Assembly: GCA_009917445.1 (NCBI GenBank)
Contig: QZEE01000002.1
Location: 62,001-126,000, forward strand
Direction of reading: 5' to 3'
DNA: 64,000 nucleotides
Source: a bacterium D16-76
Lineage (GTDB): Bacteria; Bacillota; Clostridia; Oscillospirales; Acutalibacteraceae
This document shows, in pieces, positions 1,946 to 60,397 of the stretch; the stretch's first letter is position 1, and every line of letters begins with the position of its first letter. A program made the translations under genes and the position numbers. The notes beneath the pieces are model-generated. The model saw nothing but the letters and a program-made list of their open reading frames with translations. It was not told where the DNA came from and did not search any database.

Positions 1946-4744
1946 TTAATCAACCACCTTCTTTACGAAATTAAAACCGTAAATTTTTAGGTCACACTCA
2001 TTTGAATCTGTTTCCTCTAACACTCGAATTTCTTCTTTACTCTGCTGTAATAGGCTTAAAAAGCTCTCATTTGGAACAGCAAACAGCATATAAAACAAGC
2101 TTCTGGAAATGTCCTTATTTTTAGGATCTTCAATCGCTAAAAGCAATTTATACGCAGTATGCCTATTTAGTTGAATTGTCTTGATATAGTCATAACATTC
2201 ATCCCTAATTTCCGAAACGATTTGAGATTTTGAAACATTGTCAAGCCCAGCATCAGTACTATTCCACACCTTTTGGATCTGACCTCTCATATTTCGAGCT
2301 AAATCAAGAATACGATCTACCTGCGGGTATTTAACCGAATGCTTAGAAAATACTTCATCGGATAGAAGTATTTCTGAAAACGGAATAACATTATCCAAAG
2401 TCCGATCCCCCCTAAACGAATTAAGAGAGTGTTGTAAATAATCCATTGTAGTATTATGAAACTTATAGTTCTTCTTTGTGCTGTCATAATATCCTTTGAT
2501 ACGTGCAATCTTACCAAAAAAATTAGGCTTAACCTGTCTTCCAGATGAATCCTTCTCAGAATAGATTGTTTTTAACCTTCTGATCTCCGCAACACTATCT
2601 ACCGAGAACTCCTTCTTTGCCTTATCAATCTCTATACCGCTTAAAACATCCAACTTCGATATCTCGCAATAAAGTTCAAGTACTTCATCAAATCCCATAC
2701 CGCTATTGAGCATATGCCATAGCTTAGTATTAAGCTCTTGCGATAAGTTGACAATTTCGCCAATTTTATTTACAGATGTCTTTATATCCAAATCTGCCTG
2801 GTCAGCTTGAGTATAATGGCGTGTCACTTTGTTTGCATGTACAATGCTTGTAGGGACTAAAAACCTAGAATAATTCCTTGATGCTGCTCCAACAAGAATC
2901 TTGTCATCTGTCAATAAAACAGTATCTGAATCGAAGTCAGCGCCTGACAACCTCATAAGGATATTCTCGTTAATGCTATTCACACATACAATCTCATTAG
3001 TTAGATTCAAATACGTATCAATCGCTTTACTTCCGCAGTTTTTAGCTAATAGGATATTCCCCATTGTAACATGTGGACTGCGTGATCCTAATATTGTACT
3101 ACCAGACTCAAATCTTCTACAGTAAATATTTCCATACCCAATATGACTTTCTCCGTCAAATTTACCTATCGACTCTTGCAACATTTCAATAGGGTTTCCT
3201 AATAAGGTTGAGTAGTTCCCATCGACTAAAATATGTCCTCGCGTTAAAGTCTTTTTAAATGACTTAGTTATATCGTGCTTGAAATCCCTATATAACTTTG
3301 TTTTAGCAAACTTATCACTTACTCCCAACATCTGATACACAACATCACTAGTTGTAGATGCTGAACTAACGGCTTCGCTATCCGAAGAATATTTTATATG
3401 ATAGCGCAAAACCGCAGGATCATTTTGAATCATTCTCAAATAATCTAACGATGGCTTTATCAGGCAATCAACCTCATCTTGGCTCATTTGCAATGTGTTA
3501 AGTAGCTGATAATGGACTTGTACCATTCTTCCATCAAAAAAGTGAGTAGGCTTTTCATGCTTAACAACACCAAAATTTGAATCTTCATTCAACATCTCAA
3601 GCCATTGCTCCCAAGATCCGAATTTAAGATATTTGATACTGCTTGGAGTGGTTATAACTTTAATGTCTTCAATTTTTTTTGCTGATGTCCTACCTTTTAA
3701 TTGAGAAACACTTGTAATATTGTGTTCTGCAAAAAAATTCTGAATATTTGCATTGAAACAAGCAGATTTAAAAAATCTATTTCGCAACAAAATCATTCCA
3801 TAATCTGTGTATTCTCCCATAGCACCAATATCAATCAACGACTGACCATCCCATATGCTATTTGATATTTCCACCTCTTCTGGCAAGGATTTTAGCCATC
3901 CATCATCTCCAACTCTTGTAGCAATAACATTGTCTGTGAATTTGCTCTCAAAGTCATCAATTAACAAGAAATTCTCTGGCCTTAATGATATTGTTCCGAT
4001 TATACTGCTTAACGTCAATGCAATATAGGCTTCAAGCGCAGCGAGATCGACTTCCTGACCCTCTTTGATTCGTAAGCCACCCATTTCCCATTTATGCATA
4101 CGTGGATATAGCCTGTCATCGATAAAAAGGCACTTCCCAACCCTACTACTACCGCTAGACCGCTTAAACCTTCTAAAATGTATACCATCGCAGATAAACC
4201 CATCTTTGTACAACCTATCTCTTAAGTCTGCAACAGTAAATAAAACTTTAATGGGTTTAGTTAATTGATATTTTCCATCCTCAAAAGCAAAGTATTTACC
4301 TAAGTAACTGCTTTGAACTGGATCAGAAACATCAGAATCAACCTTTATTGCGATCAACTCACCTTCACGAACATCTACGTTATCAACTAAATTGATATCG
4401 CTTGGTAAGTAGCCGAATTTGATATAGGTGTTATCAAAAAACCTATTGTACTCTTTTACACTATATTTGAATGTAACGTTAATAACTCTTCTGCAATACT
4501 CCTTACCACGTTTGTTAAAGGTAAACGCCATATTTCGGTACACCTTTTCATATACCTCTCTTAATTTGATAAGATCAAGGCTATAATCTAAAGTGTTAAT
4601 AAACTTCCTTGTATTAAACTCGCCTTTCAAATCCCCAGTGCTATATTTTACAGAGTAGCCAATATCGGCACACTGGGGATTTGAATAATTCGCAAGAAAT
4701 AAATCTTTAGCATCCGCTGATACTATGTAAACCGAATTGTTAAT
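1946..4744 (-). CDS. YonO-like single-subunit DNA-dependent RNA polymerase
   Basis: About 932 aa, close in size to SPbeta YonO. The key feature is G-A-D603-F-D605-S-D607, matching the metal-binding D-x-D-x-D loop of two-barrel RNA polymerases (beta' NADFDGD, QDE-1, YonO). About 60 residues before it lies G-S-R-S-P-H, in the place where these enzymes have a conserved R-x-P segment. Start: open frame continues upstream of a TTG at 4630 for 38 sensible codons to an ATT at 4744, 8 nt from GGAGG of GGAGGGT; the TTG has its GGGGA too close. I therefore extend the gene to a near-cognate ATT start. Such enzymes transcribe phage late genes without sigma factors in SPbeta. Polymerase call strong, start uncertain. 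Confidence 0.8.
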   Translation of the reverse strand: MNNSVYIVSADAKDLFLANYSNPQCADIGYSVKYSTGDLKGEFNTRKFINTLDYSLDLIKLREVYEKVYRNMAFTFNKRGKEYCRRVINVTFKYSVKEYNRFFDNTYIKFGYLPSDINLVDNVDVREGELIAIKVDSDVSDPVQSSYLGKYFAFEDGKYQLTKPIKVLFTVADLRDRLYKDGFICDGIHFRRFKRSSGSSRVGKCLFIDDRLYPRMHKWEMGGLRIKEGQEVDLAALEAYIALTLSSIIGTISLRPENFLLIDDFESKFTDNVIATRVGDDGWLKSLPEEVEISNSIWDGQSLIDIGAMGEYTDYGMILLRNRFFKSACFNANIQNFFAEHNITSVSQLKGRTSAKKIEDIKVITTPSSIKYLKFGSWEQWLEMLNEDSNFGVVKHEKPTHFFDGRMVQVHYQLLNTLQMSQDEVDCLIKPSLDYLRMIQNDPAVLRYHIKYSSDSEAVSSASTTSDVVYQMLGVSDKFAKTKLYRDFKHDITKSFKKTLTRGHILVDGNYSTLLGNPIEMLQESIGKFDGESHIGYGNIYCRRFESGSTILGSRSPHVTMGNILLAKNCGSKAIDTYLNLTNEIVCVNSINENILMRLSGADFDSDTVLLTDDKILVGAASRNYSRFLVPTSIVHANKVTRHYTQADQADLDIKTSVNKIGEIVNLSQELNTKLWHMLNSGMGFDEVLELYCEISKLDVLSGIEIDKAKKEFSVDSVAEIRRLKTIYSEKDSSGRQVKPNFFGKIARIKGYYDSTKKNYKFHNTTMDYLQHSLNSFRGDRTLDNVIPFSEILLSDEVFSKHSVKYPQVDRILDLARNMRGQIQKVWNSTDAGLDNVSKSQIVSEIRDECYDYIKTIQLNRHTAYKLLLAIEDPKNKDISRSLFYMLFAVPNESFLSLLQQSKEEIRVLEETDSNECDLKIYGFNFVKKVVD
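4628..4683. repeat. 13-bp inverted repeat inside the polymerase 5' region
   Basis: CAAATCCCCAGTG (4628-4640) and CACTGGGGATTTG (4671-4683) are perfect inverted copies separated by 30 nt. On the leftward transcript they would form a hairpin across codons 21-39 of the extended polymerase gene. There is no U-run, so it is not a normal terminator. Confidence 0.5.
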
Positions 4745-41378: not shown

Positions 41379-42290
41379 ATGAAGAAAGCAAAACGTGGAC
41401 TTGTAGGAGCTATTGCTTTTGCAATCCTAATCTTTGGAGGATTATTCCTACTGTTTAAATGCACTACACATATTCCAGCGGGATATGTTGGAGTAGTGTA
41501 CAATGTACGTGGTGGCGTTGTTGGAGAGGTGCTTACGCAAGGATGGCACGTAGTCGCTCCTACCAAGGAGGTTACTACATATTCCATTGGGGTAGAGCAA
41601 TCATATTTAACCGCAGGAGATAACGGCGATTCACCAGAAAACGATAGTTTTGAAGCTCCTTCTTCAGATGGTAAAGGGTTGACCGTTGACCTAGCTTTTA
41701 CATATCGATTCGATTCCGATATGGTTGCAGATACTTTTACCAGGTTTAAGGGACAGTCTGGCAAAGAAATTCTGATGTCTTTTATCAAGCCAAATGTAAT
41801 GTCATGGACAAAGGAAGTAACGGCACAGTACCCTGTCACTGAAATCTTGGGAGATCAGCGTGCTAATCTAAATCTTGTATTGACCGAATACCTTATGAAG
41901 AAGTTCGCGCCGTATGGAATTGTTGTTGAGAATGCTACACTGGTTGATATCAACCCAGATAATGAGACACGGCAGGCCATTCAGAAAAAAGTTACAGCAC
42001 AGCAGGAATTGGAGTTAGCCAATATTGAGGCACAAACGGCAAAGATTCAGGCTGAAAAAGATAAGGAAGTTGCTGAGATTGCAGCAGAGCGCGAGATTGT
42101 AGAGGCCGAAGCAAATGCTAAGGCATTGCGCATTGCAGCAGAAGCAGAGGCAGACGCAAACAAAAAGATCGCGGCATCTCTGACACCAGAACTAGTTGAA
42201 AAAATCAAGTATGAACGATGGGATGGGAAGGTGCCTACTGTATCTGGTTCTGGAACTGGTACGATTGTAAGTATCGATGGCGTGAATTGA
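41379..42290 (+). CDS. SPFH/band-7 (prohibitin-like) membrane protein
   Basis: 303 aa from ATG 41379, GAAAGG upstream. One N-terminal span (about 8-26), then the SPFH domain (H-I-P-A-G-Y-V-G-V-V-Y-N-V-R-G-G, L-T-Q-G-W-H-V-V-A-P, later Y-P-V-T-E-I-L-G-D-Q-R) and a long Ala/Glu coiled coil (about 205-275). These proteins oligomerise into membrane rings or cages. Phage versions are known but their role is unclear; membrane integrity or superinfection exclusion are options. Confidence 0.85.
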   Translation: MKKAKRGLVGAIAFAILIFGGLFLLFKCTTHIPAGYVGVVYNVRGGVVGEVLTQGWHVVAPTKEVTTYSIGVEQSYLTAGDNGDSPENDSFEAPSSDGKGLTVDLAFTYRFDSDMVADTFTRFKGQSGKEILMSFIKPNVMSWTKEVTAQYPVTEILGDQRANLNLVLTEYLMKKFAPYGIVVENATLVDINPDNETRQAIQKKVTAQQELELANIEAQTAKIQAEKDKEVAEIAAEREIVEAEANAKALRIAAEAEADANKKIAASLTPELVEKIKYERWDGKVPTVSGSGTGTIVSIDGVN

Positions 42291-42299
42291 GGTGAGTAA

Positions 42300-42590
42300 A
42301 TGGCTTTAGGAAAAAAGCAGCAAGTAACCGTATCGCATGATATCCTAAAAGAAAAGCAGGACGAAGTTGCGCGGCTTACGCGCAGAGCGGACACGGCAGT
42401 AAATGTAGTCACACGCACAATCGAAGACTTAGTGTCTGTCAACAACGAGATCGACACAGCTATGCAAGAGATTGATACGTATATGGAAAATCTCGAAAAA
42501 ACGAGAAACGAAATGGCAGAGCGGCGTAAAGCAAACTCTACTGTAATCACAAATTTCTCAAAGTTGATAAACACCGATAATCCAGCTTAA
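42300..42590 (+). CDS. Coiled-coil protein
   Basis: 96 aa, TGAGGTG upstream. Nearly the whole length is a heptad-rich helix (E-K-Q-D-E-V-A-R-L-T-R-R-A-D-T-A). Directly after the band-7 gene, so possibly associated with it. Confidence 0.6.
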   Translation: MALGKKQQVTVSHDILKEKQDEVARLTRRADTAVNVVTRTIEDLVSVNNEIDTAMQEIDTYMENLEKTRNEMAERRKANSTVITNFSKLINTDNPA

Positions 42591-42592
42591 TT

Positions 42593-42870
42593 CTAAATGG
42601 GATGTTGGCTTGGGAGCAGCCATCATTTAAAGAGTGGATGATATTCCGTGTGTGACGATGGAAAGTTTTTCCGTTATCTACCAGAAACCGATAGGGAGAG
42701 CCGATTCGGAATAAAACGGAACTTAGACTGGTCAGTCAAGGACAGTACAGCGATAAGCCTATTATATAAGATGTATTGTGAAGCGTAGGAGCCAGTACAG
42801 GAACAGTTGCGGGGGCGGGATAGGACATAAAGGGCCAATATTTCCTTTGGCGTAATAGCACACCATTTAG
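42593..42870 (+). ncRNA. 23S rRNA GTPase-associated-centre (L11-binding) mimic with 214-nt insert
   Basis: Two segments reproduce 23S rRNA positions about 1051-1108 (E. coli numbering). Segment one (42600-42635) contains GATGTTGGCTT and GCAGCCATCATTTAAAGA; segment two (42850-42863) contains GCGTAATAGC, then ACAC. A closing helix CTAAATGG/CCATTTAG (42593-42600, 42863-42870) replaces helix 42 with new but fully complementary bases. Between them, 42636-42849 is an insert that starts after T and ends in G, and whose ends can pair (GGA-T-GATATT with AATATTTCC). Joined without the insert, the junction reads AAAGAGTGCGTAATAGC, as in Gram-positive 23S. The equivalent of A1067 is G. Function unknown. 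Confidence 0.75.
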
Positions 42871-42880
42871 ATATATAAGC

Positions 42881-43038
42881 GTGGCGCTCACAGCAATTAT
42901 TTAAACACTCCATTTGAAAAATTCTCATATTTGTGTCAGTATGAGTAGCGCCACATGTAAGTGCTGCTGAAAACCGCAGCTAAGGCGATCCGCGCAGGGC
43001 GCGGACATAAAGATGTAGTTGGGAGGCTCTACAATGGC
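42881..43038 (+). ncRNA. Structured RNA between the rRNA mimic and tRNA-Leu
   Basis: Four consecutive hairpins: GTGGCGCT/AGCGCCAC (42881-42954), GCTGC/GCAGC (42963-42980), TCCGCGC/GCGCGGA with AGG loop (42989-43005) and TGTAG/CTACA (43014-43033). No open frame of note. It may continue the RNA that begins at 42593 or be separate. Confidence 0.5.
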
Positions 43039-43113
43039 AAAAGCAAGAGATCAGCCCTAAATAGCATAGAGTATTCAGTTTATATTTAATTAAATAATCT
43101 TTAGCTTACATTT

Positions 43114-43130
43114 GGGGCGCATAGCGCCCC
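43114..43130 (+). other. GC-rich hairpin before tRNA-Leu
   Basis: GGGGCGC/GCGCCCC with ATA loop, no T-run; could be a processing signal or the end of the upstream RNA. Confidence 0.5.
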
Positions 43131-43137
43131 ACCCTAT

Positions 43138-43224
43138 GTCGGAATGATGGAACTGGCAGACAAAGCGGACTTAAAATCCGCTGGCGGCAACGCTGTACGG
43201 GTTCAAATCCCGTTTCCGACACCA
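43138..43224 (+). tRNA. tRNA-Leu (anticodon TAA)
   Basis: 87 nt including encoded CCA. Acceptor GTCGGAA/TTCCGAC, discriminator A, anticodon arm GCGGA-CTTAAAA-TCCGC giving TAA, long variable arm as expected for class II Leu, T arm ACGGG-TTCAAAT-CCCGT. Canonical in every part, in contrast to the RNAs that follow. Reads UUA/UUG, common in an AT-rich phage. Confidence 0.93.
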
Positions 43225-43227
43225 ACA

Positions 43228-43307
43228 GCAAGTGATTGTCATGTTATTACACTCCAAGATTTGACGGTGGGAAAGACCACTACTGCCGTGTAAGAGCGGC
43301 AACTTGC
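43228..43307 (+). ncRNA. Structured spacer RNA
   Basis: Outer helix GCAAGT/ACTTGC encloses hairpins GTGG/CCAC (43267-43280) and TGCCG/CGGCA (43284-43301). Its last two bases are the first of the next tRNA-like element, so the two folds may compete. Confidence 0.45.
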
Positions 43308-43385
43308 GGAGATAAATCAACTGGCAGAAAGGTTTATAAATCGGGGGTATATTACCTTGTGTGGGTTCGAGTCCCACTCTCCGCT
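43306..43385 (+). ncRNA. tRNA-like RNA A with abnormal anticodon arm
   Basis: Perfect 7-bp acceptor GCGGAGA/TCTCCGC and perfect T arm GTGGG-TTCGAGT-CCCAC. The middle does not fold as a normal D/anticodon pair: D stem AATC/GGTT needs a 12-nt loop, and the only anticodon-like hairpin is TATA(A)/(G)TATA with loop ATCGGGG, which would present CGG. Could be a divergent tRNA-Pro or a non-translating tRNA mimic. Confidence 0.55.
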
Positions 43386-43495
43386 CCTCCTTTTATTTGC
43401 AAAGTATATGATCACGCTTAGGTAAGGGTCACGTTTCGATTTTGTGGGAGATCGGAATGCTCCAGTGCAATTCTGGTGAGCCTGTTATATCTATA

Positions 43496-43570
43496 TGCCT
43501 TTGTATCTCAATAGGAAGAGAGCGGGGATAATATCCCGCGATGATAAGGGTTCGAGTCCCTTCAAAGGCA
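43496..43570 (+). ncRNA. tRNA-like RNA B with 8-bp acceptor and 8-nt anticodon loop
   Basis: Acceptor TGCCTTTG/CAAAGGCA (8 bp), D arm TCTC/GAGA with AATAGGAA loop, T arm AAGGG-TTCGAGT-CCCTT. The anticodon stem GCGGG/CCCGC is perfect but closes an 8-nt loop GATAATAT, one base too many; AAT would be the nearest anticodon. Could be a frameshift-type or decoy tRNA. Confidence 0.6.
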
Positions 43571-43757
43571 AAATCCGCCAGTTAATGATGATAAGTAGCA
43601 GCTATGGGTTGATCGCCATGGAAGTCGCCTATATAGTTAATTGGTGGCGTGGAGGCTATGAAAGTGCCGATTTGGTCAACAAAGGAAGGATTCAAAATGC
43701 AGCAAGGATTACACCAATGGTCTACTCCCCTATGCAGATACAGCGTTGGCCTTTTGT

Positions 43758-43839
43758 GTTAGGGTAACTCAGTTGGATAGAGCGTGTTAGGAAGGTATTC
43801 TGAATTTCGCGGTCGTGGGTTCGAGTCCCACCCCTAGCG
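43758..43839 (+). ncRNA. tRNA-like RNA C with enlarged anticodon arm
   Basis: Acceptor GTTAGGG/CCCTAGC (one G-U), D arm with canonical AGTTGGATA loop, T arm GTGGG-TTCGAGT-CCCAC. The anticodon region is about 8 nt longer than normal and folds best as TTAGGAA/TTCTGAA with a GGTA tetraloop, leaving no anticodon loop. Confidence 0.55.
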
Positions 43840-43922
43840 CTAAGGGAAAAGTTGATTAAACTGTTAAACCAACCCTATAAATGGATCAAAACGGTGACAG
43901 CCTGGAAAGACAGGCAAATTAT

Positions 43923-44042
43923 GCGGCAATAGCCAAGAGGTAAGGCACTGAATGTATAAAATGCGAAACACAAGTTCCGCTAACAGCAATTTTTACATAT
44001 TCCAAACAGATATCGTAGGTTCGAGTCCTACTTGCCGCTCCA
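43923..44042 (+). ncRNA. tRNA-Cys-like RNA D with about 60-nt anticodon arm
   Basis: Acceptor GCGGCAA/TTGCCGC, U discriminator and encoded CCA as in tRNA-Cys; D arm GCC-AAGAGGTAA-GGC and T arm GTAGG-TTCGAGT-CCTAC are canonical. Instead of a 17-nt anticodon arm there are about 62 nt, forming an extended helix GAATGTATAAAA/TTTTTACATATTC with one mismatch, topped by TGC/GCA and GTT/AAC pairs. No usable anticodon is visible. Confidence 0.65.
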
Positions 44043-44069
44043 AACTAATAAATCCAAGGTGGTGTTAAT

Positions 44070-45593
44070 ATGGGAAACTTCATAAATGCATTAGAACGTA
44101 CCGCAAACAACGGAAAAACTCTAACTGAGAATGGTGCCGTTGGTTATCGTACTACAGGTAAGAATTTGCTAGACCTAAACTTTGCCGTTTCGTCTTTGCG
44201 TAATAGCGCAGATGAAGAAATTGCCAGTCGTTTTGAACGAGCTTTCTTTGACGATAAACTAACGGCGATTAAATGGCTTTTCTATGCGAGAGATGTCCGT
44301 GGAGGACTTGGAGAACGGCGCTTGTTTAGAGTTATCCTAAAATATATGATGTCTAAGTTTCCGAACTATTTTGTTGATCTTCTTCCACTGGTTCCTGAAT
44401 ATGGACGTTGGGATGATCTTTGGGTGCTGCTTGATACAGAATACAGAGGCTTTGTTGGAGATATCGTAGCGGCACAGTTAGACGATGATATCAGAAATGC
44501 CAACATCGGTAAAAGCATATCGCTTTTAGCCAAGTGGTTGCCTCGTAGTAGATCATCCTCTAAGACTAGTTGGAGGTATGCTCAAATTATCCAAGAAGAA
44601 CTGGATATGCAGATTGATCGATATCAGCATGTTGCATCTAGTTTAAGCAGGCATTTGAATGTTGTAGAGCAGAAGATGTCTGCGAAGAAGTGGGATGAGA
44701 TTGATTACAAGGGTGTACCTTCAAGAGCAAATCTCATATACAACAAGGCGTTTTTACGTCATGATGCAGAGAGAAGAGTTGCATTTTTGGAAGACGTGAA
44801 TGCTGGTAAAGCAAAGATAAATTCTGGTACGTTATTTCCACACGATATTGTACATAAGTATGCAGAAGAGTATGGATTTGATGCTGCCTTAGAAGCTCTT
44901 TGGAAAGGTCTTCCTAATACAATAAACGATTGTGATAGCACCATCGTAGTTGCGGATGGCAGCGGAAGCATGAGACGGCGTATGGGCAATACTCAGATAA
45001 CAGCATTAGAAATTGCAAACGCTTTGGCAATATACTTTGCGGAGAGATGTAAAGGAGAGTTTAAGGATAGATATATCACATTCTCTGAACATCCGCAGCT
45101 AGTAAATCTTGGAAGCGGGAACAGTCTACATGAGAAATTACGCATTGCACAATTTTTCACCGAGGTAGCTAATACAAACATCGAAGCTGTGTTTGATCTA
45201 ATTCTTACTACAGCAATTCAGAATAGAATGAGGCAAGATGAATTGCCGAAAAACATTCTGATAATTTCGGATATGGAGTTTGATTCGTGCGCGGTTGTTA
45301 ATGGTGCGTATTTTCAAGAGCGTCCAACTGCAACACTGTTTGAAAATATCGCCAGTCAATATAATGCTGCTGGATATCAAATCCCAAGGTTGGCATTTTG
45401 GAATGTGTGTTCCAGAACGAATGTAATTCCTATCAAGGAAAACGATCTTGGTGTCGCTCTTGTAAGTGGGTTCTCTCCTAATGTCGCTAAGATGGTAATG
45501 AGTAATACACTTGATCCATATGAGTGCTTGTTGGAGGCAATCAATGTAGAACGATATCAGCCTATCGAAGATATGCTCAAGTCTGTAATTTAG
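44070..45593 (+). CDS. Ro60/TROVE-like (DUF2828-type) RNA-binding protein with vWA domain
   Basis: 507 aa, AAGGTGG upstream. The N-terminal part (L-T-E-N-G-A, then A-R-D-V-R-G-G-L-G-E-R-R-L-F-R) is the helical-repeat signature shared by TROVE and DUF2828 proteins. The C-terminal vWA domain has the MIDAS start V-V-A-D-G-S-G-S-M (about 288-296) and N-I-L-I-I-S-D-M-E-F later. Ro60 binds Y RNAs (tRNA mimics in bacteria) and misfolded RNA. The gene begins 28 nt after tRNA-like RNA D, the arrangement seen for bacterial rsr/YrlA loci. RNA binding is inference from family and context. Confidence 0.78.
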   Translation: MGNFINALERTANNGKTLTENGAVGYRTTGKNLLDLNFAVSSLRNSADEEIASRFERAFFDDKLTAIKWLFYARDVRGGLGERRLFRVILKYMMSKFPNYFVDLLPLVPEYGRWDDLWVLLDTEYRGFVGDIVAAQLDDDIRNANIGKSISLLAKWLPRSRSSSKTSWRYAQIIQEELDMQIDRYQHVASSLSRHLNVVEQKMSAKKWDEIDYKGVPSRANLIYNKAFLRHDAERRVAFLEDVNAGKAKINSGTLFPHDIVHKYAEEYGFDAALEALWKGLPNTINDCDSTIVVADGSGSMRRRMGNTQITALEIANALAIYFAERCKGEFKDRYITFSEHPQLVNLGSGNSLHEKLRIAQFFTEVANTNIEAVFDLILTTAIQNRMRQDELPKNILIISDMEFDSCAVVNGAYFQERPTATLFENIASQYNAAGYQIPRLAFWNVCSRTNVIPIKENDLGVALVSGFSPNVAKMVMSNTLDPYECLLEAINVERYQPIEDMLKSVI

Positions 45594-56155: not shown

Positions 56156-58574
56156 ATGGACAAGAATTATACCGTTTTCCATCTTCACACAGAATTATCA
56201 CTGTTAGATAGTGCAACGAAGTATGGAGATTACATAAAAAAAGCGGTTGAACTGGGACAGAAAGCCATAGCATTTACTGAACACGGTAATATCTATCAAT
56301 GGGTAGAGAAAAAGATTGCTTGTGACGAAGCTGGAATCAAGTATCTGCATGGGTGCGAAGTTTATCTTACGGAGAAGCTTGTACATGTTGATCCAGACAC
56401 AGGAGAGGAAAGTAAGGTACGCGACAACTACCACACCATTTTGATAGCTAAAAATTTTGCCGGTGTGTTGGAACTTAACAAGTTGATTAGTGTTTCAAGC
56501 CAAGACGATCACTTCTATTATAAGCGCAGAATATCGTTTGATGAATTTCTTGGGATTTCTGATAATGTAATTAAGATTAGCGCTTGTCTGGCCTCTCCAC
56601 TCAATAAGTTAAATATCAGTCACCCTATGTATGAAAGATTGTTGAAACACTACGACTATCTTGAAATACAGCCACATGATTACTATGAGCAAGTGGATTT
56701 TAATCGCCATCTTGCGGAGATGTCACAAAAATATGGCATTCCTTTAATTGCGGGAACTGATACACATAGCTTGAATAAGTACAAAGCAGAATGTAGAAGC
56801 ATCTTGCAATTAGCAAAAGGGATTGAGTTTGCAGACGAAGATAATTTTGACTTAACATACAAGTCTTATGATGAACTTGTAGACATGTTTGCAAAGCAAG
56901 ACGCTCTTCCTGAAAGCATTTACTTAGATGCAATCGAAAACACAAATGTTATGGCTAATTCTGTTGAGTCATTTGAGCTAGATAGATCGTTTAAATACCC
57001 AGAATTATATGGAGAGCGGGATAAGGCTGTCCTAAACGATGTAATTGCAAAGAATATGCAATCAAAGCAGGATAGCGGTGCAATTACAGAAGAACAGGTA
57101 GAGCCATTTCAGCAAGCAATATCTGAAGAGCTGCGGGTTTTCGATAAGATAGAAATGTCTGGGTTTATGTTATTTATGAGCGAACTTGCGACATGGTGCA
57201 AAGAAAACGATATTCCGCTAGGGTTTAACCGTGGATCGTGCGGAGGCTCCAGAGTAGCATATGTAACAAATACCACGGACTTAAATCCAGAGACATGGCA
57301 TACCGTGTTTAGCCGTTTCTGTAATGAGGACAGGAAGGAAATAGGAGATATTGATATAGATGTTTCTCCGTCTGATCGAGATAGGGTTTATGAATACATT
57401 ATCAATAGATTCGGTCAAGACAAAACAGCTTTTATTCTCGCTATTGGCACAATTAAATCTAAAGGATGTATTGATGAAATTTGCCGTGCTCTTGGTAGCA
57501 AGTGGAATAGCGAACACAAGGCAGATGAGAAGCAATACCGTACATTGTTAAAGGCATTGAAGAATAGCGGTGTAAATGTTGTCTTTGGAGATGCTAGAAG
57601 CGATGGGTTATTCTTTTTCGATAAAAAAAGTGATCAGCTCATTTTACCAAGTCGGTATAAAGATGATAATCGCGCTGCGTTGATTAAGAGGTTTGAAAAA
57701 GAGTATGCAAGCGTTAAGGCCAAAAATGAAGAAGTATTCAAGAATAATCCTTGGCTTGGAAAGAAAAACGCTGAAATCAAAAAGGAGTTTGAGCAAAACG
57801 AAGAAAAGGCAAGAAAGAAGTACCCAGAGGTGTTCTACTACTATGATGGATTACTTGACGTAGCTATATCCCAGTCAATGCATCCAGCAGGTATTGTCGC
57901 CAGCCCTATTACATTGGATGACAACTACGGGACTTTTATTTCAGACGGAAAGACAATCTTACAGATTGATATGGATTGTGTTCATGAAGTCAGCCTTGTT
58001 AAGTACGATATCTTGGGTCTAAAAAATATCGAGATAATTAAAGATGCCTATAAGCTTATTGGAAAACCCTATCCAAAATCTCATGAAATAGACTGGTTTG
58101 ACGAAAACGTGTGGAAAGACATGTTGAGATCTCCGGTTGGTGTATTTCAGTTTGAAGGTGATTTCGCATTCTCGATGTTAAAGCAGTATGAGCCTCACTC
58201 CATTTTTGATATGAGCCTAGTTACTGCTGCCTTGCGCCCATCTGGTGCCTCATATCGTGACGAGCTTATGAAACATAAGCCACACAAGAATCCATCCCCC
58301 ATCATAGATGAATTGCTTGCAGATAATAACGGATATCTGATATACCAAGAAGATGTAATTAAGTTTTTACAAGAAATCTGTGGGTTTTCGGGGTCAGATG
58401 CAGACAACACACGAAGGGCGATTGGCAGGAAGGATGAAGAGAGATTAAACAAGGCTCTACCTCAAATTTTAGAGGGTTACTGTGAAAAATCTCCGCAGCC
58501 AAGAGAGGTTGCAGAGTTAGAAGCAAAAGAATTTTTGCAGATTATTCAGGATGCTTCTAGTTATATGTTTGGGT
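56156..58574 (+). CDS. dnaE: DnaE-type DNA polymerase III alpha, exon 1
   Basis: 806 codons plus one base, GGTG upstream. PHP domain at the start (F-H-L-H-T-E-L-S-L-L-D, T-E-H-G-N), palm with G-D-I-D-I-D-V-S (about 395-405), G-F-N-R-G-S-C-G-G-S, and F-Q-F-E-G-D/A-L-R-P-S-G of the fingers. The last exon base is T58574 after T-T-T-G-G-G. Joined to exon 2 across the intron it restores Y-M-F-G-Y-N-H-S-I-G-Y-C, total 1120 aa. Main replicative polymerase of the phage. Confidence 0.92.
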
Positions 58575-59453
58575 GAATGATTTGCTCATTTCTCGTGAAC
58601 CTGTGTTTCAAGGGTGTGCTGATTTATCAGTGCTAACGGTATCAGATGAATAAGACCAGCCTATGAAGCCTTACAAGGAGATATAGGCCATTTCCATGGA
58701 CGAAGCCTCTGACTAAGAGAACCTACGGTCTGGAAACAGATAGCAGGCAATACCGTGTCAAGTCGAAAATTATTCCAATATAGAAAGTTTGATAATTGTG
58801 GAGTGGAGATCTGTAGCTGATTATTATGGCATATATGAAGTAAGTTCAAATGGGGATGTCCGTAGTGTAGATAGAAAAATCATAGCTAAAAACGGAGTTG
58901 TAAAAACAATTCGAGGCAAAATGATGAAACAGACTATTACCAAGAAAGGATATTTAGTTGTTAATCTACATTATAACGGTGTTTCAAGAGTTGTACCAGT
59001 ACATATTTTAGTCGCCGAAGCATTTATTGAAAACAGCAATAATTATCCAATGGTAAATCACATTGATGGCAATAAACAAAACAACTCCGTTTCCAATCTT
59101 GAATGGTGCTCATACAGCCATAATAATATACATGCGTTACAACACAATTTGCGTAGTCCTCGCGGTGTTCCGATAATGCAAAGAACGCTTGATGGAATAC
59201 TGGTTGATACTTATGATTCAGCATATGAGGCAGCAAGAAAGCTTTCAATTAGCGCAAACGCGATTATAAAATGTGCCAATCATAAAACAAAATCCGCTGG
59301 CGGGTTTGTTTGGCAAAAATGGGAAGAGTTTTCGGAAGATCTAACGACTATCCTATAAAGGAGTACTCCAGAGATGAACGCCTGGGGGAAGTGCGAGAAC
59401 GGATAAATCCGAAGATATAGTCTGTGATATCGGAAACGATATTGTGTAGAACG
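58575..59453 (+). mobile_element. Group I intron in dnaE
   Basis: 879 nt. The 5' exon ends in T and the intron ends in G (59453), as required. Core elements visible: CTGACTAAGAGAACC near 58711 (R-like), GAAGATATAGTCTGTG near 59411 (S-like P7/P3). The polymerase frame is exactly restored (3363 nt). A homing endonuclease gene is inside. Confidence 0.88.
58789..59358 (+). CDS. HNH homing endonuclease of the intron
   Basis: Up to 189 aa; start probably TTG 58789 or a GTG nearby. NUMOD4 start (E-W-R-S-V-A-D-Y-Y-G-I-Y-E-V-S-S-N-G), HNH core V-N-H-I-D-G-N-K-Q-N-N with N-L-E-W-C-S, and a NUMOD1 tail (A-A-R-K-L-S-I-S-A-N-A-I). Spreads the intron to intronless polymerase genes. Confidence 0.88.
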   Translation: MIIVEWRSVADYYGIYEVSSNGDVRSVDRKIIAKNGVVKTIRGKMMKQTITKKGYLVVNLHYNGVSRVVPVHILVAEAFIENSNNYPMVNHIDGNKQNNSVSNLEWCSYSHNNIHALQHNLRSPRGVPIMQRTLDGILVDTYDSAYEAARKLSISANAIIKCANHKTKSAGGFVWQKWEEFSEDLTTIL

Positions 59454-60397
59454 ACAATCATTCTATTGGATATTGCATGATAGGTTACTTGTGCGCATAC
59501 CTACGTTATTACTATCCATATGAGTTTATCACTGCTTATCTCAATAATGCTGATAACGAAGATGATACTAAAAACGGTAACGAACTTGCAACATTGTATG
59601 GTATAAAAATCATACCGCCAAAGTTTGGAATTTCAAAAGATGAATATGTTTTTGACAAAGAAAAGAAAGTTATTGCAAAAGGATTAAGCTCAGTAAAATA
59701 TATGAATGCAAAAGTTGCGATAGAGTTATTTGAACTTGCAAAGCGTGAAAAGCCAAAATCCTTTATGGATCTTCTATTGTCAGCAAAAGAAACCCATATG
59801 GATTCGCGTAAAATGGATGTGCTGATTAAAATAGACTTCTTTTCTGAATATGGCAATTCAAAAGAACTTTTGCGCATAGCAGATTTGTTTTCTTTCTTCA
59901 AAAATGGAGATGCAAAAACTATTGCAAAAGATAAATTAAAGCCTGATTTACTTGAAGTTGTTTCTCAATTCGGAAATGATATATCAAAGCAGGGCAAGCC
60001 ATTAAAGAAGTACACTATAACTGATATGCCGGGTCTGTTAAACTGTTGCGAGGCTAAAATCAAAGAAATGAATATTGATGACTTTGATATGAGAAGCAAA
60101 ATCAATAATCAGCTTGAAATGTTAGGTTATATTGATTTAACAACAGGAAAAGAAACAGATAGAAGAAAACTTCTTATAACCGATGTATTTCCATTAAGAG
60201 GAAGAGAAAGCAATGAGATATGGGCTTACGCAATTTCTACGAGGTCTATAGGCAGTGGTAAAGTATCTCGTTTGACTGTCAGAAGTTTCATTTATGATAG
60301 TGATCCAATAAAGAGATTCGATATCATTTATGCATCGGACATATATAAGGACAAAAAGGGATATTGGAATTTAGCAAAATATTATCATGTAAGTTGA
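59454..60397 (+). CDS. dnaE: DnaE-type DNA polymerase III alpha, exon 2
   Basis: 314 codons. Begins ACAATCATTCT, giving N-H-S-I-G-Y-C-M-I-G-Y and the A-Y-L-R-Y-Y-Y-P-Y-E-F-I motif, then helix-hairpin-helix and a beta-rich C-terminal region. No OB or tau-binding tail is obvious. Confidence 0.9.

Follow-up and report, generated by a model that had tools for sequence, protein, structure and literature searches.

A short region of this contig, lying between a small open reading frame that ends at 42590 and a cluster of tRNA genes (43138-44039), raises the question of whether a phage can carry a domain of 23S rRNA as an RNA of its own and, if so, what such an RNA would do. The window analysed here, the whole stretch of 64,000 nucleotides, is part of a phage-like contig within a bacterial assembly, in which primase/helicase, DNA polymerase and other phage protein families are present. 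A preliminary description of this DNA claimed that it encodes a phage RNA with two blocks of the GTPase-associated centre (GAC) of 23S rRNA, and both blocks are found where that description placed them. In the rest of the host genome there is one further match to the GAC blocks, which is the host's own 23S gene.

Architecture of the element

The GAC core of the window element spans positions 1055-1104 of 23S rRNA (Table 1). Position numbers are those of the E. coli 23S sequence as we take it to run, anchored on A1067 and A1095. The 5' block (42600-42635) is the Gram-positive-type 23S sequence from 1055 to 1090, as in the rRNA stretch L041, except in the loop of helix 43, where A1067 and A1069 are both replaced by G. 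The 3' block (42850-42863) equals 23S 1091-1104 except for a change of U1101 to A. The two blocks are not contiguous: U1090 and G1091 are separated by 214 nt, which consist of a 210-nt domain and the tetranucleotide UUUG. Removal of the insert was expected to restore the exact rRNA junction, an expectation contradicted by the UUUG added before G1091 and by the change at 1101. The closing helix of the rRNA domain is replaced by a new one, TCTAAATGG/CCATTTAGA (42592-42600 with 42863-42871), which is fully paired over 9 bp. The stretch L041 comes from the record of Paenibacillus phage Pd_22F (83976-84012); it is genuine 23S rRNA without an insert, and probably host DNA.

Table 1. Parts of the putative RNA and the neighbouring tRNA cluster (window positions; residue numbers refer to 23S rRNA)
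Feature	Position	Strand	Basis or remark
Whole RNA element, about 280 nt	42592-42871	+	Pairing and comparison of homologues; ends placed provisionally from the closing helix
Closing helix, 5' strand; last base is position 1055	42592-42600	+	9 perfect pairs with 42863-42871; covaries across 120 representatives
GAC helix 43 hairpin (1057-1081), G at 1067 and 1069	42602-42626	+	
GAC junction and 5' strand of helix 44 (1082-1090, TTAAAGAGT)	42627-42635	+	1082-1086 covaries; GAGT in 120/120
Inserted domain, 210 nt, in the bulge of helix 44, opened by its own helix	42636-42845	+	Insert helix pairing
Phage-specific UUUG linker preceding G1091	42846-42849	+	Conserved in representatives found without the 3' pattern
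GAC helix 44 hairpin (1091-1100), A1095 retained	42850-42859	+	
Positions 1101-1104, ACAC	42860-42863	+	A1101 able to pair with U1090 (U1101 in rRNA)
Closing helix, 3' strand; first base is position 1104	42863-42871	+	
tRNA and tRNA-like cluster downstream	43138-44039	+	5 Rfam tRNA matches

Distribution among phages

Pattern and BLAST searches returned at least 156 matches in 155 stretches, corresponding to at least 133 distinct cores and at least 120 dereplicated representatives, from phage isolates, from IMG/VR and from contigs deposited as parts of bacterial genomes. Some of the 156 matches are duplicates, since near-identical contigs occur among them and the window and GAP32 are each counted twice; the 120 representatives are those left after near-duplicates, elements too close to a contig end and weak matches were dropped. 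BLAST with the 5' block identified the element in the following isolates: Aeromonas phage 4_4572, Pseudomonas phages pf16, Astolliot, Milchi and UNO-G1W1, Cronobacter phage GAP32, Serratia phage BF, the Erwinia SNUABM phages and Kaldavass, Xanthomonas phages XbC2 and XaC1, and Vibrio phage 2.275.O. In these isolate records the element bears no RNA annotation. The same search also picked up several records, short or contaminated, in which the match is true 23S rRNA; some weak matches (such as LR745208 and Callan) were not taken as elements. The 3' block added Pectobacterium phage CBB as a carrier.

The preliminary description regarded the block match as beyond chance, and searches with a single block bear this out. 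The 5' pattern alone picked 37 stretches in IMG/VR, 35 of which also have the 3' block in the right place; the remaining two are a genuine 23S rRNA (L034) and a locus cut by the contig end (L024). Position 1101 is A in all 35, 34 of them reading GCACAC and one (L007) GAACAC. The 3' pattern in turn gave at least 120 stretches, of which at least 106 were new loci. Among the matches listed, 91 of the 106 new loci have the 5' block at a strict threshold, nine have a diverged 5' block found by a relaxed search, four have too little upstream DNA and two are unrelated. A scan of GTDB genome contigs yielded 44 stretches, 15 of which have both blocks; the 29 unpaired ones mean little because 16 fixed bases in 257 Gb should give, by our own estimate, some 100 chance matches. 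Since the blocks co-occur in the single-block pattern searches, a chance match or rRNA contamination is rejected as the origin of the family. BLAST with the element L094 returned mainly tRNA genes among the best 40 of 359 records.

For searches of whole records, 50 were picked mainly for length, and they cover part of all loci. The exact 3' motif occurs in 48 of them, once in 47 and twice in one, the record of L114 (G037). The locus L151 holds two elements, one of them diverged.

Selection on the GAC fold

The replacement of the basal rRNA helix by new complementary strands had been read as a sign of selection on a stand-alone fold, and covariation in this closing helix had been named as a check. 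Homologous elements exist and keep the pairing. Across the 120 representatives, strands from the same element form on average 6.83 bp, as against a mean of 2.74 (sd 0.11, maximum 3.14) in 1000 reshuffles in which strands were swapped between elements, and several outer positions of the helix show all four Watson-Crick pair types.

Pairs inside the GAC were counted in the 102 of 120 representatives that have GAGT (1087-1090) in register; the other 18 comprise 11 with an extra hairpin near 1078 and a remainder with small indels. Both secondary and tertiary pairing of the GAC were found in these 102. The pair 1058-1080 is formed in 101 as UA, GC, AU or CG (2000 reshuffles: mean 43, maximum 59), and the tertiary pair 1082-1086 in 96, as UA in 53, CG in 30 and AU in 13, with six exceptions (2000 reshuffles: mean 58, maximum 69). 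Elsewhere in helix 43, pairing holds at 1057-1081 (101), 1059-1079 (102), 1063-1075 (102) and 1064-1074 (102), and is weaker at 1062-1076 (97/102) and 1065-1073 (90/102). The pairs 1060-1088, 1087-1102, 1091-1100 and 1092-1099 are each formed in all 102. Because U1060 and GAGT 1087-1090, which includes A1088, are each present in 120/120, the tertiary partners 1060 and 1088 are invariant in this set. In diverged members not counted among the 120, helix 43 is changed on both sides, for example to GGA/UCC or GGGC/GCCC, as judged by eye.

Position 1101 separates the phage RNA from rRNA. U1090 faces A1101, or G in two cases, in 102/102 representatives, whereas U1101 is found in all 15 readable rRNA rows (10 distinct) and in the host's own 23S gene. 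A sixteenth rRNA row, L220, is itself a phage-type element and was left out of the rRNA rows. Judged from these alignments, the rRNA arrangement is replaced by a predicted U1090-A1101 pair. Since the search with the 3' pattern supplied 89 of the 120 representatives and this pattern dictates much of their 3' block, since the pairing script tolerates at most three mismatches in the 18-nt 3' motif, and since the 102 were chosen by GAGT, positions within the patterns are conserved partly through the way members were selected. The remaining 31 representatives, to which the 3' pattern did not contribute, have UUU in 30, the linker G in 29 and A1095 in 29, with A at 1101 in 29 and G in two. The preliminary description singled out the change of A1067 to G; this stands for the window, one of 14 representatives with G, and fails as a general loss, since A1067 is kept in 102/120 and replaced in 18/120 overall.

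Free folding of the window RNA gives a z of -1.65, with 13 of 200 shuffles as good, and the GAC junction is missing from the predicted structure, in which AUCAUUUA is paired with UGGAUGAU. On the comparative evidence, the RNA is almost certainly a real and selected family.

The second hairpin near 1078, in helix 43, occurs in L059, L079, L086, L107, L110, L125, L131, L132, L147, L149 and L152. In these 11 representatives the GAC core resumes after it.

The inserted domain

The insert starts with a helix of its own. Its first three pairs, formed between the bases after U1090 and those before UUU, are present in 101/102, 99/102 and 94/102 representatives, that is, in 294 of 306 cells, compared with a mean of 163 and a maximum of 187 in 2000 reshuffles. 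Its length ranges from 23 nt, in L015, to 396 nt (median 132, readable in 109/120 representatives). By sequence, the inserts form many groups; 25 members make up the largest BLAST cluster. A hairpin near the 3' end of the insert is common to 23 rows, namely 22 of this 25-member cluster and L177. The signature of the window insert was found in IMG/VR in L007 only; between these two, in an alignment with pairing judged by eye, CCGA/UCGG corresponds to CUGA/UCAG and UUCCGUU/AACGGAA to GAUUGUU/AACAAUC, so that both sides of each stem change together. Folded alone (102/120), the inserts have a mean z of -0.76, slightly above shuffle stability.

The resemblance to a group I intron suggested in the preliminary description does not survive these observations. 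Opening as it does with a covarying helix of its own, the insert is a domain and not an intron: this helix is part of the host fold, the insert can be as short as 23 nt, and an Rfam scan of the window (E up to 5) gave no intron match in the insert.

One hairpin in the insert of L031 reproduces the 14-nt sarcin-ricin sequence exactly, set on a stem. In L134, whose insert is related, the stem is kept with two-sided changes, the loop differs and the sarcin-ricin tetraloop is absent. A stretch near the hairpin presumably resembles the 3' end of 23S rRNA. Being confined to L031 among the elements scanned and lost in its relative L134, the sarcin-ricin loop was rejected as a general feature of the insert.

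Genomic setting

The element is often a close neighbour of tRNA genes that share its strand. Such a gene is found within 70 nt in 50/120 representatives (random placement in the same loci: mean 8.1, maximum 15), and a tRNA gene on the opposite strand in 0/120 within 70, 300 or 1000 nt. Within 1 kb, a same-strand tRNA is present in 69/120 against 44.5 for random placement (maximum 53). Conversely, 70/120 have no same-strand tRNA within 70 nt and 51/120 have no tRNA within 1 kb of the available flanks. This adjacency fits co-transcription of the putative RNA with tRNAs and its release by tRNA processing. In giant phages of the GAP32 and BF types, short protein genes surround the element instead, and it takes the same place in the gene order across GAP32-, BF- and XbC2-type phages. 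The elements looked at are flanked by protein and tRNA genes, not embedded in a continuous rRNA gene. In the window, a terminator scan of 42200-44100 found none on the + strand and six on the - strand, where 1.4 were expected, and a promoter scan of the same interval remained at chance level. The stretch 42866-43060 folds with a z of -0.32.

Several other features of the surroundings were observed. A long inverted repeat, GTGGCGCT ... AGCGCCAC (42880-42955, +), lies between the element and the first tRNA and folds no better than shuffles. At 43923-44039 (+), just before a gene for a Ro-like protein, there is a tRNA-like RNA with an enlarged anticodon arm of about 56 nt, which could be an interrupted tRNA or a Y-RNA partner of the Ro-like gene. 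L040 and L070 likewise contain overlong tRNA matches. Further away, an HNH endonuclease gene (58789-59358) separates the two reading frames over which the DNA polymerase gene (56156-60397, +) is divided, as in a mobile intron or split gene. A large protein encoded at 1946-4630 (-) matches phrog_8308 and, weakly, an RNA-dependent RNA polymerase family; it may be an unusual phage RNA polymerase.

Comparison with known RNAs

The element belongs to no known Rfam family, as far as the window and 15 additional loci show: tRNA was the only match at the gathering score, and the models of GOLLD and ROOL, as well as, over the element, those of Y_RNA and YrlA, gave none. The bacterial LSU rRNA model (RF02541, gathering score 50 bits) does not match the window; its best score among the 15 other loci, 31.4 bits in L094, is below the gathering score, and sub-threshold matches to bacterial or archaeal LSU rRNA cover the element in 5/15.

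The element resembles the 23S GAC bound by uL11 in sequence, in its hairpins, in the tertiary contacts 1060-1088 and 1082-1086, in A1095 and usually in A1067. In contrast to the GAC of rRNA, it lies outside rRNA and has its own closing helix, a bulge domain of 23-396 nt, the UUUG linker and A or G in place of U1101. GOLLD and ROOL are likewise structured RNAs of phages and prophages that often lie near tRNA islands, and they are not known to have a function. According to PMC12286853, sequestration of RpsU is a proposed role of OLE, and GOLLD is said to bind ribosomes in pull-downs. Unlike GOLLD and ROOL, whose Rfam models do not match, the phage RNA has an identifiable rRNA domain as its core.

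Leaders of ribosomal protein operons, such as that of uL1, also copy a 23S binding site of a ribosomal protein (PMC10931766). However, these leaders act in cis on the mRNA of a ribosomal protein, and no such gene follows the phage element in the window. A cis-acting leader was rejected accordingly: the window neighbours are Band_7, tRNAs and DUF2828, and a uL11 gene was found in 0/50 records. The stable RNAs C and D of phage T4 are, by annotation, products of a phage tRNA cluster; identity with them was also rejected, their region being without GAC blocks at the looseness tried. As for bacterial Y RNAs such as YrlA, a Ro-like gene lies near the element in the window and in some phages. In L116, a 376-kb phage contig, sub-threshold YrlA, Y RNA and tmRNA matches are lined up beside the element (about 1253-1767, -), an arrangement that suggests a Y-RNA array. 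Within PMC, no description of a phage RNA with a GAC domain was found; preprints and most subscription journals are outside the scope of that search.

A proposed free stalk base for host uL11

The C-terminal domain of uL11 binds exactly the tertiary fold of the GAC, and EF-G, thiostrepton and the elbows of tRNAs approach the GAC loops. The 50 records (some possibly fragments) contain no uL11 gene, and a phage-encoded uL11 was discarded as a partner; bL12 (PF00542) matches in five of them, four above the cut-off, which is too few to build on. A ribosomal protein partner would therefore have to be the uL11 of the host, whose genome encodes an ordinary one. Solved structures of relatives of the host uL11 include isolated fragments (1hc8 and 1qa6, both of which we take to contain GAC RNA) and whole ribosomes. 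According to PMC4974054, the N-terminus of L11 is required for the activation of RelA, and the elbow of the A/R-tRNA touches the L11 stalk.

Capture of uL11 is, we infer, the most economical reading of these data. We put at about one half the probability that the RNA acts in trans as an independent stalk base, one that captures the uL11 of the host and presents a variable arm. Extended to the family, at the same even odds, these widespread phage RNAs would provide a free stalk-base module that captures host uL11, and perhaps factors, RelA or tRNA, while the fast-evolving arm retunes translation or starvation and defence signalling. The RNA would be cut out of tRNA-array transcripts and accumulate as tRNAs do; it would then bind uL11 in the manner of rRNA and withdraw it from new or exchanging ribosomes. 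Alternatively, RNA and uL11 together could make up a free stalk base and engage whatever partners the L11 stalk has. Infection would then be expected to bring weaker uL11-dependent signalling, such as the stringent response of the RelA type, or an altered use of factors, and the variable arm would contribute an activity, contacts or an anchor specific to the lineage. The proposal in the preliminary description of a decoy for L11, GTPases or RelA is a reasonable one to draw from the sequence. A decoy for uL11 would need high expression, or turnover of uL11, because the protein is normally bound to ribosomes. Against uL11 capture stand the replacement of A1067 in 18/120 representatives, the window among them, and the weak folding of the window RNA (z of -1.65) and of the inserts (-0.76).

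Alternative explanations

It is possible, if doubtful, that the RNA faces factors and effectors, so that its imitation of the stalk base, with or without uL11, baits translational GTPases, RelA, tRNA elbows or a defence toxin that attacks ribosomes. The loops that face factors are mostly kept (A1067 in 102/120; A1095 in 29/31 representatives found without the 3' pattern), yet A1067 is more variable than the tertiary core. The location among phage tRNA genes agrees with such a decoy, as does the sarcin-ricin sequence in L031; this latter resemblance is weak, however, given the loss of the tetraloop in L134 and the singularity of L031 among the inserts scanned.

Rather unlikely is an explanation in which the GAC fold is a mere rigid building block of an ornate phage RNA of the ROOL or GOLLD kind, with no link to translation proteins. 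The genomic niche that the element has in common with ROOL and GOLLD, its large variable domains and the lack of a uL11 gene in 50 records would suit it. A building block should lose its exposed residues more freely than is seen, however: besides the tertiary fold, A1095 (29/31) and A1067 (102/120) are mostly kept.

We consider it improbable that the RNA is a partner of the phage Ro60-like protein (DUF2828), whether by serving as a Y-RNA analogue or by being passed to a Ro-type particle. A Ro60-like gene of the DUF2828/DUF7788 type (44070-45593, +) directly follows the tRNA cluster of the window, DUF2828 matches occur in 18 of the 50 element-bearing records (17 above the cut-off), and with the window counted, the distance is less than 6 kb on the same strand in 10 of 19 cases, as measured by hand. 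To this may be added the sub-threshold Y-RNA-like matches that adjoin the element in L116. Nevertheless, DUF2828 was not seen in 32/50 records, some of them fragments, and the gene is about 180 kb away in five records of the GAP32/BF type and 20-29 kb away in four others. Moreover, because as many as 682 phage records carry a gene of this type, nearness is a lead and not a test, and shared tRNA neighbourhoods could explain it.

Finally, a captured rRNA scrap, assembly contamination or a functionless intron-bearing rRNA copy, for which the clear descent from rRNA sequence might speak, has next to no probability left, as it is already contradicted by the covariation data, and by the re-made helix and phage-specific changes across many lineages, the unchanged gene-order position in GAP32-, BF- and XbC2-type phages, and the insert helix paired in nearly all members counted.

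Significance

To our knowledge, the non-tRNA RNAs of phage tRNA islands have long been without functions. The family described here recurs in many large phages, often inside such islands, and a conserved phage RNA copy of a functional domain of the ribosome has no precedent within the literature reached by the PMC search. Even if the RNA does not bind uL11, its existence demonstrates that domains of rRNA can be taken up as modules into new RNAs. If it does, and thereby blunts RelA or redirects factors, it would add a new level to the control that phages exert over the host ribosome, and mimicry of rRNA would be a viral weapon.
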